Source: Cercospora beticola
Taxonomy: Eukaryota; Ascomycota; Dothideomycetes; Mycosphaerellales; Mycosphaerellaceae
Assembly (NCBI RefSeq): GCF_033473495.1
Contig: NC_088937.1
Location: 2,976,001 to 3,040,000, forward strand
Direction: 5' to 3'
DNA: 64,000 nucleotides
Shown: positions 15,780 through 63,998 of the stretch, one piece after another
How positions within the stretch are numbered: the stretch's first letter is position 1
Layout of the letters: the number at the start of each line of letters is the position of its first letter
Notes under the pieces: model-generated
The model's input: only the letters and a program-made list of their open reading frames with translations
Database searches by the model: none
Told to the model about the DNA's origin: nothing
Translations under genes and position numbers: made by a program

Positions 15780-16160
15780 GGTTTAACCCAGATGAGATTG
15801 CTTCACTAAGTTGGCTGAGAGATGGATACTGTTCTACTTTCGGGGTCTAGAAGATGTGTGAAAGACGGAGAACAGTGGTGCGATATTGTGTCGCCGATGG
15901 CGACCTGCACAAAGGTCTTACACTGAGAGCGATGGCCGAGACTCATCCCATAAGGGCACTTTGTATAAGTTACGATACTGAATTCAAGAAGCATAGCAAG
16001 CAGGCGATGATCAGAAGACTCACAGTAGTCACTGAGCTTCCAAGGAATGTCACAAGTGAAGATCTGAAATTCATTGAATATAATAATACATTTCCCCCCA
16101 TCTCAGTCACAGACAGAAGATTCCGAGTGTAGAAGAAAATTCCACCGCTTACGACTCCAG
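15780..16160. other. Intergenic region between the F-box gene and the hairpin array
   Basis: No supported gene and no clear hairpin of the array type. Confidence 0.5.
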
Positions 16161-18090
16161 GCCGCCACCAGTGGATTTCAGGCACCAGGCCCCAATAATA
16201 ATACAATCAAGAGAAAAGAGAAGAGAAAGTTCCCCAAGCCGACTCCGACGCACAGCATCATCGTCCCCTAAAGCTGCCATCCAGCGGCATTCCAGTCCAA
16301 GACACCAGGTCTCGGTAAGAGAAGTAAAGAAGTCAGAAGATGAAATACCAGAGAAGTCACCAGTGATTCTTCAGCATGATGAACGAGCCAGTCATCCATC
16401 GGAATGTATTTTGTGCTTTGTGTTTCATTTTGAACGTGTGAAGTCGCCAACCAGCGGCGATGATAGAATGGTGCCCAAATCACCAGGATCTGGACATCAC
16501 AGTCCGAAACGAGCCAGTCATTCGTCCTTGGAGAAGAAGATCAAAAGTCCATCGCTAGCCGGTAGTGATGAACAACGATCAAGACACCAGTGTCTCATCG
16601 TGGTAAACAGTAGGGGGATGTGAATCCGACGAGCCGGTCGCCAGGTGTTGTTTCGTCATCTTTCTGATAAACACCATCCAGTAGCGTTCTTCGAAGTCCG
16701 AGATACCAGAACTTGGACCCGGATTGAGTTGAAAGGAGTGGACTGAAGAAAGCCACCAGGGCAGAGTCCAAGCAGACGAGACTAGCCCGATCGCTGTGAA
16801 ATCGAAGTGGTGGAGAATTGCCAACCAGCGGCGATGTTCCCAGTCACAAGAGACACCAGGCCTCGTGGACGAAAGAGAAGAAAGGCCTCCAGGGCTGTAA
16901 CAAAATACGCAAAGTCCAGCTCGCATAAAGTCATAATCGTCGTTGGTCTCGTAGTTACTATCCAGTAGCAACTTGGCAAAAAGAGACACCAGGTCTCGAG
17001 AGAGGGAAGAAACAAGTAAGCATATAACCACCTGGGCCACATGATCATCGCGATAGCCAGATCGCTTGGATAAATGAGATTGCTATCCGGTAGCGAACCT
17101 CGTGCACTGGGAAGACACCCGGTCTCCAGTGAGATGAGAAGGAGTAGCCTCCAGGGCAGGATTCAAGATCGACGAACCAGTCATCGATCTTGTAGTGTAC
17201 AACGACGCTGCCAGCCAGTGACAGTGCCGCTTGGTAGGCAGAGTCGCCGGGACTTCTGCACAAAAAGTCACGAACCAGTCGTTTCTTGAAGATCGTGTCG
17301 TCATGAGAATCGCAGTCCAGCCACAATCGTCCAGCTCATAACATCGTAAGAAGAAGAAGAAGCATATCGTCGCCTGGACCATATCTTCATCGAAGGACAA
17401 TCCAGTCGTCCAGCTCAGTCATAAAATTCGTAAAGTTCGCCATCCAGTAGCTTCGTTGCATGTCACATCTCATCGAAAATCGCTATCCAGTAGCGATTCC
17501 ATCAGGTCGTGATAGAAAAGAGACACCAGTTCTCATTCGTCAAATCCATCGGAGAAGAAGTAGAAATTTCCAAGGAGCGTAGAAGCCACCAGGGCTGATC
17601 TGTCGTTCATCTTCGCTCGTGGCAATTCGTAATCTTCGTGAAGGTAGATGCTAGCCAGTAGCATTTCGTGTATTCGTTAGGTCGTTAGGGTCGTTAACAT
17701 GAGGCGCCGGGCCTTCATGATGTTTTTGACAAAGGAGATTCGTGATGTGAAAGGAGTGGAAGTGGTCGTTATGGTGTCGTTGTCGTAAAGATTCGTCTTG
17801 TGTGTCGTTGTCGAGTATCGTGAATGTGATTGTGGAGGAGGCGAGAGATCCGGGGTCGATGTTCGATGTTTGTTTCCGGCAAGGTTTGTCTGTCGTCGAT
17901 GCATTTCGTAGCAATTGACAGGCGAGGATCTGCAGCTGGTGGAAAGGATCATTTTAGGTCTTGATACGGCTCCTGTGCCATGGTCGAGTGTGGCCAGGCC
18001 CATGCTTCCCCATCAACATATGAGGAGTAGCATCCAGGGCTGATGTGGCATCGATGCTGGAAATCGAGGCACCGGCCTCGGTTGCGCAGT
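16160..18090 (-). ncRNA. Array of 25 or more CNGG-loop hairpins (Smaug/Vts1-type elements)
   Basis: On the plus strand the pattern is stem, N-CCNG, matching stem. On the minus strand the loop therefore starts CNGG. Clear examples, as arms with minus-strand loop: 16550-16570 CATCGCTA/TAGTGATG, CCGGC; 16582-16595 AGACA/TGTCT, CTGG; 16696-16718 GTCCGAG/CTTGGAC plus a T-A closing pair, CTGGT; 16953-16973 AGTTACTA/TAGCAACT with one mismatch, CTGGA; 16983-16997 GAGAC/GTCTC, CTGGT; 17050-17065 GCGAT/ATCGC, CTGGCT; 17080-17096 TTGCTA/TAGCGA, CCGGA; 17105-17131 CACTGG+AGAC/GTCT+CCAGTG, CGGGT; 17164-17192 twelve-base arms with one mismatch, CTGGT; 17238-17259 GCAGAGTC, CCGGC; 17478-17498 AATCGCTA/TAGCGATT, CTGGA; 17584-17596 AGCC/GGCT, CTGGT; 17646-17666 AGATGCTA/TAGCATTT, CTGGC; 17698-17719 CATGAGGC with one bulge, CCGGC; 18062-18083 AATCGAGG/CCTCGGTT, CCGGTG. 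Others with 3-6 bp stems lie between. There is no long consistent ORF. Smaug and Vts1 SAM domains are known to bind hairpins with CNGG(N) loops whatever the stem sequence. Transcription is inferred, not seen. Confidence 0.75.
16270..17670. repeat. Diverged ~130-bp higher-order repeat underlying the hairpin array
   Basis: Hairpins of the same stem class recur about every 130 bases. GAGAC-type stems occur near 16582, 16850, 16983, 17113 and 17520. GCTA/TAGC-type stems occur near 16552, 16676, 16955, 17081, 17480 and 17648. AGCC/GGC-type stems occur near 16752, 16884, 17147 and 17584. CGA..TC-type stems occur near 16383, 16510, 16630, 17171 and 17271. The usual order within a unit on the plus strand is GCTA class, GAGAC class, AGCC class, CGA class. 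This looks like an old tandem repeat whose units have diverged while pairing was kept. Confidence 0.6.
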
Positions 18091-20505
18091 GTTCCAGCGG
18101 AATGGGATGGCAAGAGACAGTGCTCGAGGAGGTATGGGTGTTGTAGTGTTGAAGATATGGCCCGGACGTGCTCAGGTGAAGTCTGCAGCGGAAGCTGAGA
18201 GTGCAAATGCCACAGTGGAGCCAGCCACTGCAGTAAACGCCATGATGAATGAAAAGATGAAGGAGTGGAAGAAAGCTGATTAGGCTTTGCAGCTGCTGTT
18301 GCTGCTGCTGATGAGATGTTGGGATTGAGGAGAAATTCGTCCTTCTTAAATGTCTGAATCTGTCTCCTTGCGATGCTATCACACCATCGCGGTGCATGTT
18401 GTCGGCGTTTCTATACTTGGCTTGTGCCTCAAGCCTTTCCATAGAACTTACCTTGTCGCTGTCGTGATGGCCCAGGAGACAACTAAGTGACCTATCAGGT
18501 GGTAGCATCAAAGCATACAGACCCCACCGGAGGCACATGACAGGCCGAGCAACAGAGACAGCCCAGAAGCATTCACTCCACCAGTGCTGCGATAGCTCCT
18601 GGGCATGCTGGATCCTCCGAACTAATTATGGATACAATCTGTTGTTACAGAGTAGCCCACGTGGAGTAGTATGGCACGCCGAAGCATACGGCCGACTACT
18701 TGCGCTTGCCTCTTTTGGGGATATGAAGTTCCGGTAAGGCTGTGTTGGAAGGATGTTTCCCAAGGCGAGCGTCGGTTCAGATGATAATAACGCCGTCGCC
18801 GAGAACGTCAGGTTCGCAACAATCGAATCGTGCTTATTGATTTCAGCGTACTCCAGCGCAGAGCAGTACGTCATGTACTGGAGTTGATGCTCGCACACCG
18901 AGCTGGCGCTTTTCGGCATGACACAAGGATCTCCACAGATCTCATGCTTTGACCTCGTGCCTTATCGAAAGAGCCGCCAGCTAGGCATATGTGCAGATTG
19001 AGGCTCTGGTCAGGCACGCGATGCGCAAAGCCCAAAGTCCATCGGACGCCGTCCGATCGCGCCATGCCAGGAATGTGATAGAGCAACTGGAAATGTGTCG
19101 AACGGAAGATCCGATGAAACGTCCTTGGCTCGAAAGTACCGGGGAGCGGCGATAATGCCAAGGTAGACCTAAGTCCATGGTCATAACTTGATGTAAATGG
19201 AGTAACACAGAGGTGATGCCAAGCCTGAAGTGAAAGCGCCGAGCTAGTGTATGGCAGAGGATTTTCGCCGACACAGCTGTAGACGCTTCCGCTCCTCCAC
19301 TGTCCGTTTCTGTTAGCTGATATCTTAGACGGAGTCGCCCACTGAACAATGCTGCAGCTGTGAATTGGTCATGCGTGCTCGCGTATCTTGAGTTGATCTG
19401 CGGTCATGTGCAGATCTCTGGAGATATTCGGCCGCTTCTATAGGTCTCACATGTACGGCGTCCTAATGACTGCTCGCACGGTCCTATGTGTGTGCTCGTC
19501 GAGTCCCTGCCTCCAACAAGGCACTCGGTGTACCTACTGCTTCAGACTGTCAGCAAGCTACAGTGTCAGCGATATTGTTCGATAGATACACAGCCACGCG
19601 GCACTATTTGCGGTGAGTCCAAGCAGCACGAAGTGTTTGCAATCTGAGTCGCACTTCGGAGCGGGAGACCTCAGCACGCGATTACATGCGGCTCCTTCTG
19701 TGCACGCCTCACGTGGAGTGTGCGTGCAAGCCAAAGCGCTTTGTTCGGCGAAAACGCCGGCACGCCGAGCAGCCTCCGCCGTGACGTGAAGCGTTTGAAG
19801 AGGGCTCCGGCGCTATGATGCCGAGCTCGGTGGCTCACGGATACTTCATCATTGCAGGAGCAACTTCCTTCGCATTCGAGTCGGAATGTTGCCTTTTGCA
19901 TTGGTCTATGAACCGCCCAGACTGGGTGGACTTGGGACGGAGCCAGAAACAGTGAAACCGTGCCGTGTCGCGAAGCTGGTGCAATTTCTTCGGGCTGGCG
20001 GTAAGCACATGATGTTATGTCTTCTCTCGGATGATGGACTGTATGCTTAGTCAATTGCGTGGTAGACGGTGCAGAGTGTGAGGAAGGAAAGGAGTGCATG
20101 TCGTCTGGAGGAGAAATGAGCTAGAGTGACACAAGCTTTCCCGTGACTCCGGAATGGCATGGGTGTGATGGACGACAGTACTGTAGGGAGAGCAGTAGTA
20201 AATGACAGACCGTAGAAGCATTGAACAGATCTGCCTCGTCGCTGATTAACAGCTGCCGTGTGTGCATGGTGCGATGGTCTGGAGTCAATGGGAAGAGGAG
20301 TTATGGTGATGCCTGGCGAGCGCGGTGATCATCGTCATCGCTCGACACGCGCCACACCTGTGCCCCGCCGCAGCAGCAGGCGCTCGTCTGGTACAAAGAC
20401 ATCAACTCCACCATCGCGTGTACTGTACCGTAGACCAGCGTGACATGTGATCACTGTCGTTCTATCCTCAGGCAAGTAACACACCGGTCACCTGCAGCAG
20501 GAACG
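18091..20505. other. Gene-poor region
   Basis: No gene that I can support in 2.4 kb. Minus-strand codons 18243 to 18175 encode a 23-residue peptide resembling a bare signal peptide (MAFTAVAGSTVAFALSASAA), followed by a stop. A 194-codon minus ORF (17954-18538) with a short Gln run overlaps it in another frame. Either could be a leader of the hairpin RNA or a decayed secreted-protein gene. Confidence 0.4.
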
Positions 20506-56495: not shown

Positions 56496-56759
56496 GCAGG
56501 CCTGTGTCCAATCGCGAGTCTCTAGTTAGCTTGGCAGTCTCCTCGTACGGTGCTACACCAAGCCTAGGCGTCTTAAGCCCTTCGAAAAATCGTCCAGCGA
56601 TTAAACAGAGCCCACAAATCCCAGCGCAGGCCTGCCTGCGTCCAATCTCGAGTCTTTAGCTTGGCAGTCTCCTCGTGCGGTGCTACACCAAGCCATCAGG
56701 CGTCTCAAGCCCTTCGAAGGTCGTCCTGCGATCAAACAGAGCCAACGAGCACCAGTGCG
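56496..56759 (-). repeat. 130-bp tandem duplication with CNGG-loop hairpins
   Basis: Two adjacent copies starting at 56496 and 56626 share long identical blocks (for example AGCTTGGCAGTCTCCTCGT and GGTGCTACACCAAGC). Each holds a GCTTGG/CCAAGC stem. On the minus strand there is also a short hairpin with a CNGGN loop: 56588-56602 (AATCG/CGATT, loop CTGGA) and 56719-56733 (GGTCG/CGATC, loop CAGGA). The repeat lies 50-310 bases past the stop of the minus-strand gene at 56808, so it may be its 3' UTR. Confidence 0.75.
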
Positions 56760-56807
56760 GAGCTTCCTTCAACGTTCTTCAGTCATGCAACTTCTCCTTC
56801 CCTCGGC

Positions 56808-62586: not shown

Positions 62587-63190
62587 CGAGGTGGAGGCAG
62601 GAATAACCGGCGTGTAATTGGCTCGATCACACAAGCCTTGCACTTGGTTCGTGACTTTACCTGGCACTTTCATCAGCGTGATATTCTTGTTGGCAGCAAC
62701 CATCCTGCACGGGATATGCCATCATGCGAATACGACCTTGGGCAATCTACCGGCCAGCCGTGGACTGTTGAACGGCATCGAGATGGCACGAAGGCTTGAA
62801 TGCCGGATCTTTCCCACGCTGCGCTGCGCTGGCGGAGACACACGTGCGGCGAGAGCCTACGATATGGTGCGGAGAGCATTTTACACAATGGATCCCGCTG
62901 TCGATCGCATCTTTGTGGTTCCTCAAGGGCTGATCCGTGAAGAAGCGAAGCGGAGCTGGAGCAAAGATTTCATTTGAGCAGACGTGATGACCTCCTGGGT
63001 CTTCATCTGCTGCTACCTTTTCTGTACACGCACGGAACCAATATGGCTCTTCCATCTCGAGCAGCAACACGCTGTGGTGCAAGCTCTGCTGTACAAGCGT
63101 GGAACCCATACAGCTCTCCCATTCCAAGCAGCAACATTCTGTGGTGTTCATCCTTCACTTGGCCGGCCAAAGAAGTCAAGAACACAATGC

Positions 63191-63260
63191 TAGCCTCCCA
63201 AAAAGTCAATCACACAACGCAAGCCTCCCAAAAAGTCAATCACACAACGCAAGCCTCACA
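63191..63260 (+). repeat. 30-bp tandem repeat, 2.3 copies
   Basis: The unit AGCCTCCCAAAAAGTCAATC plus CACACAACGC repeats nearly exactly at 63192 and 63222, with a third partial copy (AAGCCTC). Confidence 0.8.
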
Positions 63261-63287
63261 ACTCGTCTCTCTCCACAGCACCTAGCT

Positions 63288-63998
63288 TCAGTCCTTGCGG
63301 CGATTGTCCATTCGCAAAGTCATGGACACTCCAAGTCTGTACGGCTGCCCAGGGCGTTCGACCTTGGTACGCTTCGCTGGACCATCGTTTGCTGCAACTG
63401 GGACACTCTGGGCCGCATCACCGCCATTGGTCTGGTCGGGAGTCTGCTCGTCCGTTTCCATCGGCTCGTCCGTTTCCATCGGCTCGTCCGTTTCCATCGG
63501 CTCGTCCGTTTCCATCGGCTCGTCCATTTCCATCGCATCGCGCTTCTGCGGCTTTGGAGGCGGGAAATTGATCTGCTGAGATTTGGCCAGCAGTGCTCTC
63601 CAGTGCTCGTCGGTCAAGACTTTGCCCTCATTCATCTCCTCCTCGATTGCAGCGAAGTGAGAATCGACAAGAGCTCTCTGTTCATCCGACACTGCTCTCT
63701 TCATCATCACGCCCTTCTGAATCATCAGTTTTGGCATGTACTGCAGCAAGAAGTCTGCGTGGAGTCTGTCCCGCTTTCTCTGCTTCGCAATCCCGTTCTC
63801 GAAGAGGTCAAGAGCATCGCATTTCTTGCATGTGAAGACCTCATCCTGAGCTTGCCGGAAATGCTCAAAGTCAGCCTTCAGGAACTCGTCGCGGTCGGGC
63901 AAATCATAGTGCGCCTCGCCTTGAAAACCTTTTCCGACACAGCCTGGATGGAAAGGCTTGCTGCACGTGTCGCACTGTAGCATGTACTGCAGGTCCAT
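63288..63998 (-). CDS. PHD-finger-like protein, 5' end beyond the window
   Basis: The last 236 codons of a minus-strand gene. The start of this piece (MLQCDTCSKPFHPGC) and EVFTCKKCD are the second to fourth zinc-ligand pairs of a PHD finger. The first C-x2-C pair is missing, so the gene very likely begins outside the window and the Met at 63998 is probably not the start. The middle is helical (FLLQYMPKLMIQKGVMMKRA). The C-terminal part has DEPMET repeated four times from an 18-bp minisatellite, then a basic KRTKVERPGQ tail. PHD fingers read histone tails; the specific complex is unknown. Confidence 0.75.
   Translation of the reverse strand: MDLQYMLQCDTCSKPFHPGCVGKGFQGEAHYDLPDRDEFLKADFEHFRQAQDEVFTCKKCDALDLFENGIAKQRKRDRLHADFLLQYMPKLMIQKGVMMKRAVSDEQRALVDSHFAAIEEEMNEGKVLTDEHWRALLAKSQQINFPPPKPQKRDAMEMDEPMETDEPMETDEPMETDEPMETDEQTPDQTNGGDAAQSVPVAANDGPAKRTKVERPGQPYRLGVSMTLRMDNRRKD
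63458..63532 (-). repeat. 18-bp coding minisatellite (DEPMET units)
   Basis: On the plus strand GGCTCGTCCGTTTCCATC is repeated about four times with near identity, encoding DEPMET on the minus strand. The high identity implies recent copy-number change. Confidence 0.85.

Follow-up and report, generated by a model that had tools for sequence, protein, structure and literature searches.

To our knowledge, only a small number of RNAs have been described that act as decoys for RNA-binding proteins. In bacteria, CsrB/CsrC and RsmY/Z are RNAs with many constant-loop hairpins that sequester the translational regulator CsrA/RsmA, while in fission yeast the non-coding RNA meiRNA/sme2 carries clustered sites that tie up the RNA-decay factor Mmi1. 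In mammals, the long non-coding RNA (lncRNA) NORAD binds Pumilio, and at least 17 functional Pumilio sites are reported for it (PMC4947167). The hairpins read by the Smaug family, known as Smaug recognition elements (SREs), are described by the consensus loop CNGGN0-3 (PMC4053848), and the element of yeast Vts1, a hairpin with the loop CNGGN(0-1), is reported to be enriched in Vts1 targets (PMC2573929). In yeast and fly, SREs are described as marking messenger RNAs (mRNAs) for repression and decay (PMC3468468, PMC4053848), with yeast Vts1 driving deadenylation via Ccr4-Pop2-Not (PMC3468468). Here, we describe an array of hairpins with CNGG loops on the minus strand of a Cercospora beticola locus, found in a window of 64,000 nt (the whole stretch of DNA analysed, C3:2,976,001-3,040,000 of a genome of 36.07 Mb in 10 contigs), and we consider it rather probable, from the sequence, that the RNA of this array is a multi-site decoy that titrates Vts1.

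The hairpins were counted with a strict definition, namely a loop of exactly 5 nt starting with CNGG on a contiguous stem of at least 4 bp, with G.U pairs allowed. The minus strand of 16,100-18,120 holds 28 such hairpins and the plus strand holds none, compared to a mean of 0.62 and a maximum of 5 when the minus strand was dinucleotide-shuffled 1000 times. Stems of at least 5 bp are found in 20 of them and stems of at least 6 bp in 16 (0.09 in the shuffles), and the longest stem reaches 12 bp. Other loop lengths are scarce on the minus strand, with one hairpin at 4 nt, three at 6 nt, and one at 7 nt, the lone 7-nt row being the second register of a pentaloop element; the pentaloop register is specific because 4-, 6-, and 7-nt loops are so few. 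A wider count, which also admits 4- and 6-nt loops as well as stems of only 3 bp if two or more of the pairs are G-C, yielded 38 rows, corresponding to 37 elements since one appears in two registers, and two of the elements share one base. The shuffle control refers to the strict pentaloop count, and the wider count of 37 is given without one. An extra candidate at 16555..16565 stays outside the 37 because it fails the two-G-C rule despite a likely closing pair. The dense part of the array, 16,151-17,714, comprises 36 hairpins, with a single outlier at 18,065-18,080.

When compared to the background, the array stands well apart. The strict density elsewhere in the window was 0.72 per 2 kb on the plus strand and 0.61 on the minus strand (array removed), and 34 other genome loci (276 strand-kb) gave 0.69 per 2 kb, with a highest count of 5 among the 68 background strand-loci. 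These 34 loci remained from 42 after eight that overlapped the array or duplicated another locus had been left out, and as 24 of the 34 were picked for holding a CTGG hairpin, the background is if anything high. As a separate observation, the minus strand of L002, opposite another SAM-domain gene, packs five hairpins with CNGG pentaloops into 2 kb, which equals the background maximum; this cluster is probably due to chance.

The stems of the array are genuine pairs under constraint. In the alignment of 28 hairpin rows, standard pairs fill 85.7% of cells vs. 48.3% with the 3' letters shuffled (0/500), two-sided changes occur in 83 cells vs. 32.4 (0/500), the covariation score is 0.991 vs. 0.284 (0/500), and further pair types number 28 vs. 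23.3 (1/500). Registers slid by 1-3 columns were 33-49% paired, and each of the 7 stem positions shows 4-6 standard pair types, the stem sequence being free. The rows had been chosen for four inner pairs, which biases the inner columns; the outer positions 5-8, which lie outside this selection, hold 2.50 pairs per hairpin vs. 1.57 when the arms were exchanged (5000 permutations, maximum 2.25). Likewise, all 59 CNGG sites taken without selection hold 2.71 of 4 pairs vs. 1.76 when permuted, with a maximum of 2.20.

The informative strand is the minus strand. In 25 cores defined by first two pairs of Watson-Crick type, positions 3-6 read on the minus strand comprise 59 Watson-Crick pairs, 18 G.U, 6 A.C, and 17 others. 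Since an A.C here is a G.U on the opposite strand, the excess of 18 G.U over 6 A.C (p 0.011; 19 vs. 8 in the extending count, p 0.026) fits an RNA of the minus strand. Additionally, an SRE-style score was calculated with RNAplfold (window of 170, span of 120, 25 C) by adding up, for all CNGG sites, how probable it is that the nucleotide preceding the C closes a 4-8-nt loop, following the first step of the method as described in PMC4053848, without its sampling step. The array scored 14.2 on the minus strand and 0.13 on the plus strand, compared to a median of 0.5 in 2-kb windows and 3.03 for the best one clear of the array (124 windows per strand), and 21 sites had a closing-pair probability >0.25 at 25 C.

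A previous sequence-only reading of this DNA had placed at least 25 hairpins at 16160..18090, with stems often of 6-11 bp that differ and yet pair with themselves, and with CNGG loops in constant orientation on the minus strand. Its placement holds, although the array starts slightly lower, at 16,151, and its number proved an undercount given the 37 elements of the wider count; the description of the stems is fair, and the covariation and strand counts bear out the pairing and the orientation. The comparison with dinucleotide-shuffled sequence that this reading had asked for also came out in its favour.

Regarding the loops, when pentaloop hairpins are counted irrespective of loop sequence, CNGG accounts for 28/55 with a minimum stem of 4 bp, 20/31 with 5 bp, and 16/19 with 6 bp, while pentaloops one mismatch off at C1, G3, or G4 number 3, 1, and 0 at the same minimum lengths. 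The loop constraint sits on these three positions, and the claim that variants occur only at N is nearly exact, the few one-mismatch loops being the departure from it. Among the 28 strict hairpins, loop position 2 is U in 22, C in 4, G in 1, and A in 1, and loop position 5 is U in 12, A in 9, and C in 7. The loop start CUGG is found in 22/28 array hairpins vs. 10/42 background hairpins (p 7e-6), and 5-nt loops make up 28 of the 33 rows with loops of 4-7 nt, which matches the SRE preference. In fly embryos, 5-nt loops are reported to be most predictive of Smaug binding and repression, with CUGG the best of four, and CGGG and CUGG are reported to be favoured by the yeast and human proteins (PMC4053848). 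Judged by their sequence, C1, G3, G4, the pentaloop, and the CUGG preference together fit the Smaug family closely.

A search of the genome for SAM_2 domains (six-frame, introns ignored) gave five matches, L001-L005. The SAM domain of L004 (C7:1,371,496-1,371,651) matches yeast VTS1 structures at an expectation value (E) of 5e-17 and fly Smaug at E 5e-6, and a protein from Cercospora kikuchii, which UniRef calls RNA-binding protein VTS1, is 100% identical to its open frame over 98%; on these matches, L004 is a clear Vts1 orthologue. Three of the five matches (L001, L002, and L004) were compared. L001, the best SAM_2 match, was rejected as Vts1, as it matches other SAM proteins including Ste11, and L002 groups with other SAM proteins.

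A second motif, ACGA, is also enriched on the minus strand of the locus. It occurs 37 times in 16,150-18,100 vs. a shuffle mean of 12.4 (maximum 23) and 28 times in 17,250-17,920 vs. 10.3 (maximum 19), with 1000 shuffles each. The stretch of 17-18 kb is the most ACGA-rich of the 64 minus-strand kilobases (29 vs. a mean of 5.4), and the opposite orientation occurs there 3 times. No positional coupling of ACGA to the hairpins was detected, with 11/28 within 6-20 nt upstream of a core vs. 9.3 expected (p 0.31). The longer word ACGACG occurs 45 times over the whole window vs. 28.75, and only 2/45 lie inside the array. On these counts, ACGA might be bound by a second protein.

The array locus is apparently non-coding. 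A Pfam scan of 8 open reading frames (ORFs) within or upstream of the array left 7 without a match and gave the remaining one an insignificant match below the cut-off (E 0.049), and a homologue search with two ORFs of the locus at E up to 10 found none. The hairpin loops are spread over all three frames (11, 10, and 7), and a protein-coding reading, which neither Pfam, homologues, nor loop frame supported, was rejected. Within the 64-kb window, no known RNA family matched in Rfam at the gathering score, and a transfer RNA scan found none.

The history of the array is recorded in its repeats. Tandem Repeats Finder called nothing inside it, and diverged direct repeats are present, such as six 15-nt copies with 80-93% identity to the reference and five 20-nt copies with 70-85%. 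These repeats point to growth by tandem duplication long ago; the array probably arose in this way, with loop and pairing kept while spacers and stems would have drifted, as described for NORAD (PMC4947167). When the whole array was run against the genome by blastn, with an E limit of 1 and with simple repeats and common words skipped, only the array itself was returned, and a single-hairpin covariance model run on the window returned its 28 source members and 4 weak matches outside at E up to 5. Two class patterns were run on the genome: of the 9 matches to the first, 3 lie in the array, and of the 27 to the second, 2 do, vs. 31 matches for the reversed control of the second pattern, so that there is no excess. 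No second array was found at the loci taken from these two patterns (the first 20 of the second's), and a three-CTGG pattern, with 11,082 genome matches, was uninformative on further arrays.

Several observations weigh against a Vts1 decoy. A G before the loop is reported to be best for Smaug and also for the yeast and human proteins, with A, C, and U working as well, so that G is a preference and no requirement (PMC4053848). In the array, the base before the loop is A in 13, C in 11, and G in only 4 of the 28 hairpins, a departure from this preference. Likewise, CGGG, reported to rank second for the yeast and human proteins, is present in a single hairpin, compared to four with CCGG, and CTGG is in any case the most frequent CNGG on the minus strand of the window (350/931). 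The RNA contacts reported for yeast Vts1 are Arg464, Lys467, Tyr468, Leu496, Gly497, Arg500, and Lys501 (PMC9893680); counted along the structure-match alignment, L004 keeps 5/7 of them, Leu496 being replaced by Lys and Arg500 by Thr. In a census of 120 listed homologues, with the motif found in 118, Lys496 with Thr/Ser500 occurs in 67/118 and Arg500 in the other 51. In an alignment of 19 rows, the former type is seen in Septoria, Pseudocercospora, Zasmidium, Dothistroma, Zymoseptoria, Baudoinia, and Teratosphaeria, and the latter in Cladosporium and Aureobasidium.

Among the same adverse points are some that concern structure and coding. When stem pairs are scored for the presence of any two-sided change, the array has 7 vs. 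6.2 in the shuffles, a measure that does not separate, since 123/500 shuffles do as well. Whole-region folding energy is ordinary (z -0.82 on the minus strand and -0.45 on the plus strand, 100 shuffles each), no stabler than the shuffles because the stems are short. The minimum-energy fold of the minus strand (span up to 60) has CNGGN in 14/47 hairpin loops, and at 37 C only 15 sites have a closing-pair probability >0.3. A hexamer coding score gave -0.30 to 0.07 for the ORFs of the locus and 0.52-0.63 for the 8 training ORFs, and other ORFs of at least 150 codons outside the locus, probable genes among them, reached at most 0.21; the score is overfitted and too weak to part untrained genes from non-genes, and it was not relied on.

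The altered contact residues, the A or C before the loop, and the presence of ACGA on the same strand would all suit hairpins whose reader is not Vts1 but a different RNA-binding protein or machine that shares its loop preference. We hold this to be quite improbable, given the joint match of the loop features to the Smaug family and given that, of the SAM_2 matches compared, L004 goes with Vts1 while L001 and L002 go with other SAM proteins. The ordinary folding energy and the diverged direct repeats could also be expected of a locus without any RNA function, that is, palindromic DNA sites, a mutational by-product, or chance. Chance, however, is excluded by the shuffle counts, DNA sites should conserve the arms and not the spacer, whereas the hairpins here have differing arms around a constant spacer of fixed orientation, and the G.U wobbles fit RNA of one strand, all of which makes this explanation extremely improbable. 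The assignment to Vts1/Smaug made in the sequence-only reading is partly supported, with the loop sequence and length, the preference at position 2, the free choice of stem, the minus strand, and the Vts1 orthologue in its favour, and it fits less well at the base before most loops and at the two contact residues that differ from yeast.

From loop and orthologue taken together, Vts1 very probably binds the array RNA, a step common to the decoy and to the two alternatives set out below. In the proposed mechanism, the minus strand at about 16.1-18.1 kb would be transcribed as an lncRNA consisting largely of SREs, and the SAM domain of Vts1, by its specificity, would read the CNGGN loops, so that one RNA could hold many Vts1 molecules. 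The RNA would occupy Vts1 and lower its activity on mRNAs with one or few such hairpins, and ordinary SRE mRNAs would thereby be spared Vts1-driven deadenylation and decay. The strength of the decoy would track the level of the array RNA. A Vts1 target is normally degraded, and such a decoy must therefore be abundant or decay-resistant, which also counts against it.

Identical sequence evidence would be expected if the array belonged to a non-coding or 3'-untranslated RNA that Vts1 binds and, together with CCR4-NOT, keeps either very unstable or silent, perhaps until its release at one stage. This would accord with the reported role of SREs as marks for repression and decay (PMC3468468, PMC4053848), and a longer minus transcript, with its start anywhere up to ~20.4 kb, could contain the array as its 3' part. 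In our judgement, 37 elements in 1.9 kb without a recognised protein look excessive, and we regard such a super-target as unlikely. The RNA might also nucleate Vts1 condensates (granules) and raise Vts1 activity, as many sites per RNA would favour multivalent assembly, and yeast Vts1 condensates are reported to bind SRE mRNAs, with a hyperactive [SMAUG+] state (PMC10380529). No sequence feature parts this scaffold from a decoy, and we rate it as distinctly unlikely. In its fullest form, the decoy reading would make the array the first natural sponge of the Smaug/Vts1 family, a fungal lncRNA with ~37 SAM-domain sites and linear ACGA motifs for another protein, an RNA that would determine how much Vts1 is free; this fuller version is tentative, and our confidence in it falls a little short of even. 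As part of the same sponge reading, the Vts1 contact residues (Leu496 to Lys, Arg500 to Thr/Ser) and the sponge may have changed together.

The array is situated between an F-box-like open frame that ends at ~15,779 (Pfam match just below the cut-off) and a TBC RabGAP open frame that starts at ~20,434, both on the plus strand and thus opposite to the hairpins. Past the last hairpin, the transcript could end at the A/T-rich 16,060-16,095. Upstream of the array, a GTAAGT preceded by CAAG is located on the minus strand at ~18,450 and could be a splice donor, that is, the start of an intron. Elsewhere in the window, Tandem Repeats Finder called a 30-nt unit repeated 3.1 times (90% matches, 63167-63261), an 18-nt unit repeated 5.0 times (98% matches, 63446-63535), and a 131-bp unit present twice (76% matches, 56530-56794).

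Table 1. Hairpins and candidate transcript features of the array locus, in window coordinates. P, closing-pair probability of the region fold at 37 C.
Feature	Position	Strand	Remarks
Whole array, 37 CNGG-loop hairpins	16151..18080	-	~1 per 50 nt, 1.93 kb
ACGA-rich stretch, 5' half of presumed RNA	17250..17920	-	28 vs. shuffle mean 10.3
A/T-rich patch past last hairpin, candidate 3'-end processing signal	16060..16095	-	sequence only
Hairpin, 6-nt loop CCGGUG, 5 bp	18065..18080	-	
Hairpin, loop CCGGC, 4 bp	17702..17714	-	P 0.94
Hairpin, loop CUGGC, 6 bp	17648..17664	-	P 0.89
Hairpin, loop CUGGU, 4 bp	17584..17596	-	
Hairpin, loop CUGGA, 10 bp	17476..17500	-	
Hairpin, loop CUGGA, 4 bp	17439..17451	-	
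Hairpin, loop CUGGA, 6 bp	17395..17411	-	P 0.32
Hairpin, loop CAGGC, 3 bp	17369..17379	-	P 0.82
Hairpin, loop CUGGA, 8 bp, several G.U	17308..17328	-	P 0.36
Hairpin, loop CUGGU, 4 bp	17270..17282	-	
Hairpin, loop CCGGC, 4 bp	17242..17254	-	
Hairpin, loop CUGGC, 6 bp	17208..17224	-	
Hairpin, loop CUGGU, 12 bp, longest	17164..17192	-	P 0.90
Hairpin, loop CUGGA, 3 bp GC	17147..17157	-	
Hairpin, loop CGGGU, 6 bp (alternative register CCGGGUG, 5 bp)	17111..17127	-	
Hairpin, loop CCGGA, 4 bp	17082..17094	-	P 0.87
Hairpin, 6-nt loop CUGGCU, 5 bp	17050..17065	-	
Hairpin, loop CAGGU, 9 bp	17021..17043	-	P 0.68
Hairpin, loop CUGGU, 5 bp	16983..16997	-	P 0.86
Hairpin, loop CUGGA, 8 bp	16953..16973	-	
Hairpin, 6-nt loop CUGGAC, 8 bp	16906..16927	-	
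Hairpin, loop CUGGA, 3 bp GC	16885..16895	-	
Hairpin, loop CUGGU, 5 bp	16850..16864	-	
Hairpin, loop CUGGU, 4 bp	16820..16832	-	
Hairpin, loop CUGGU, 3 bp GC	16752..16762	-	
Hairpin, loop CUGGA, 8 bp	16669..16689	-	
Hairpin, loop CCGGC, 7 bp	16626..16644	-	
Hairpin, 4-nt loop CUGG, 7 bp	16580..16597	-	
Extra candidate, loop CCGGC, 3 bp then mismatch	16555..16565	-	P 0.83; 25 C RNAplfold P 0.64
Hairpin, loop CUGGC, 6 bp	16507..16523	-	
Hairpin, loop CUGGU, 10 bp	16472..16496	-	P 0.82
Hairpin, loop CUGGU, 6 bp	16444..16460	-	P 0.54
Hairpin, loop CUGGC, 9 bp	16378..16400	-	P 0.87
Hairpin, loop CUGGU, 7 bp	16297..16315	-	P 0.86
Hairpin, loop CUGGA, 5 bp	16275..16289	-	
Hairpin, loop CUGGU, 4 bp	16180..16192	-	
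Hairpin, 4-nt loop CUGG, 3 bp, base 16165 common with neighbour	16165..16174	-	
Hairpin, loop CUGGA, 5 bp	16151..16165	-	P 0.81

If the array RNA is indeed a Vts1 decoy, it would make available a natural reagent for capturing and titrating Vts1, bring to light a further level of post-transcriptional regulation in a lineage of crop pathogens, and offer a clean test of the site number and RNA level needed for a sponge. The array would also be a natural record of the tolerance of the SAM domain with respect to stems, loop positions 2 and 5, and the closing pair.

When compared to the SREs of fly nanos, Hsp83, and yeast Vts1 targets as these are described, the array shares the short hairpin with any stem and a loop that has CNGG as its 5' part, with 5 nt and CUGG favoured (PMC4053848, PMC2573929, PMC2895634). 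In contrast, the known SRE targets are mRNAs, whereas the array places 37 elements in an apparently non-coding locus and has A or C instead of G before the loop. NORAD resembles the presumed array RNA in carrying many sites for one repressive RNA-binding protein and in its old, diverged repeats, whose motifs are reported to have outlasted the sequence (PMC4947167). Its Pumilio sites are linear, while the array, which is fungal, offers hairpins to a SAM domain, and the action of NORAD was shown by experiment, whereas that of the array is deduced. The bacterial CsrB/CsrC and RsmY/Z RNAs differ from the array in being shorter, with GGA loops and an unrelated protein, and meiRNA/sme2 differs in its linear motifs, its other protein, and its action at its own gene locus. 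No Vts1/Smaug decoy RNA was found among the literature matches listed, most subscription papers lying outside their coverage, and the sequence-only reading knew of no described Vts1 sponge in filamentous fungi. The locus would belong with the protein-sequestering RNAs and, as a fungal hairpin sponge for the Smaug family, appears to be new among them.

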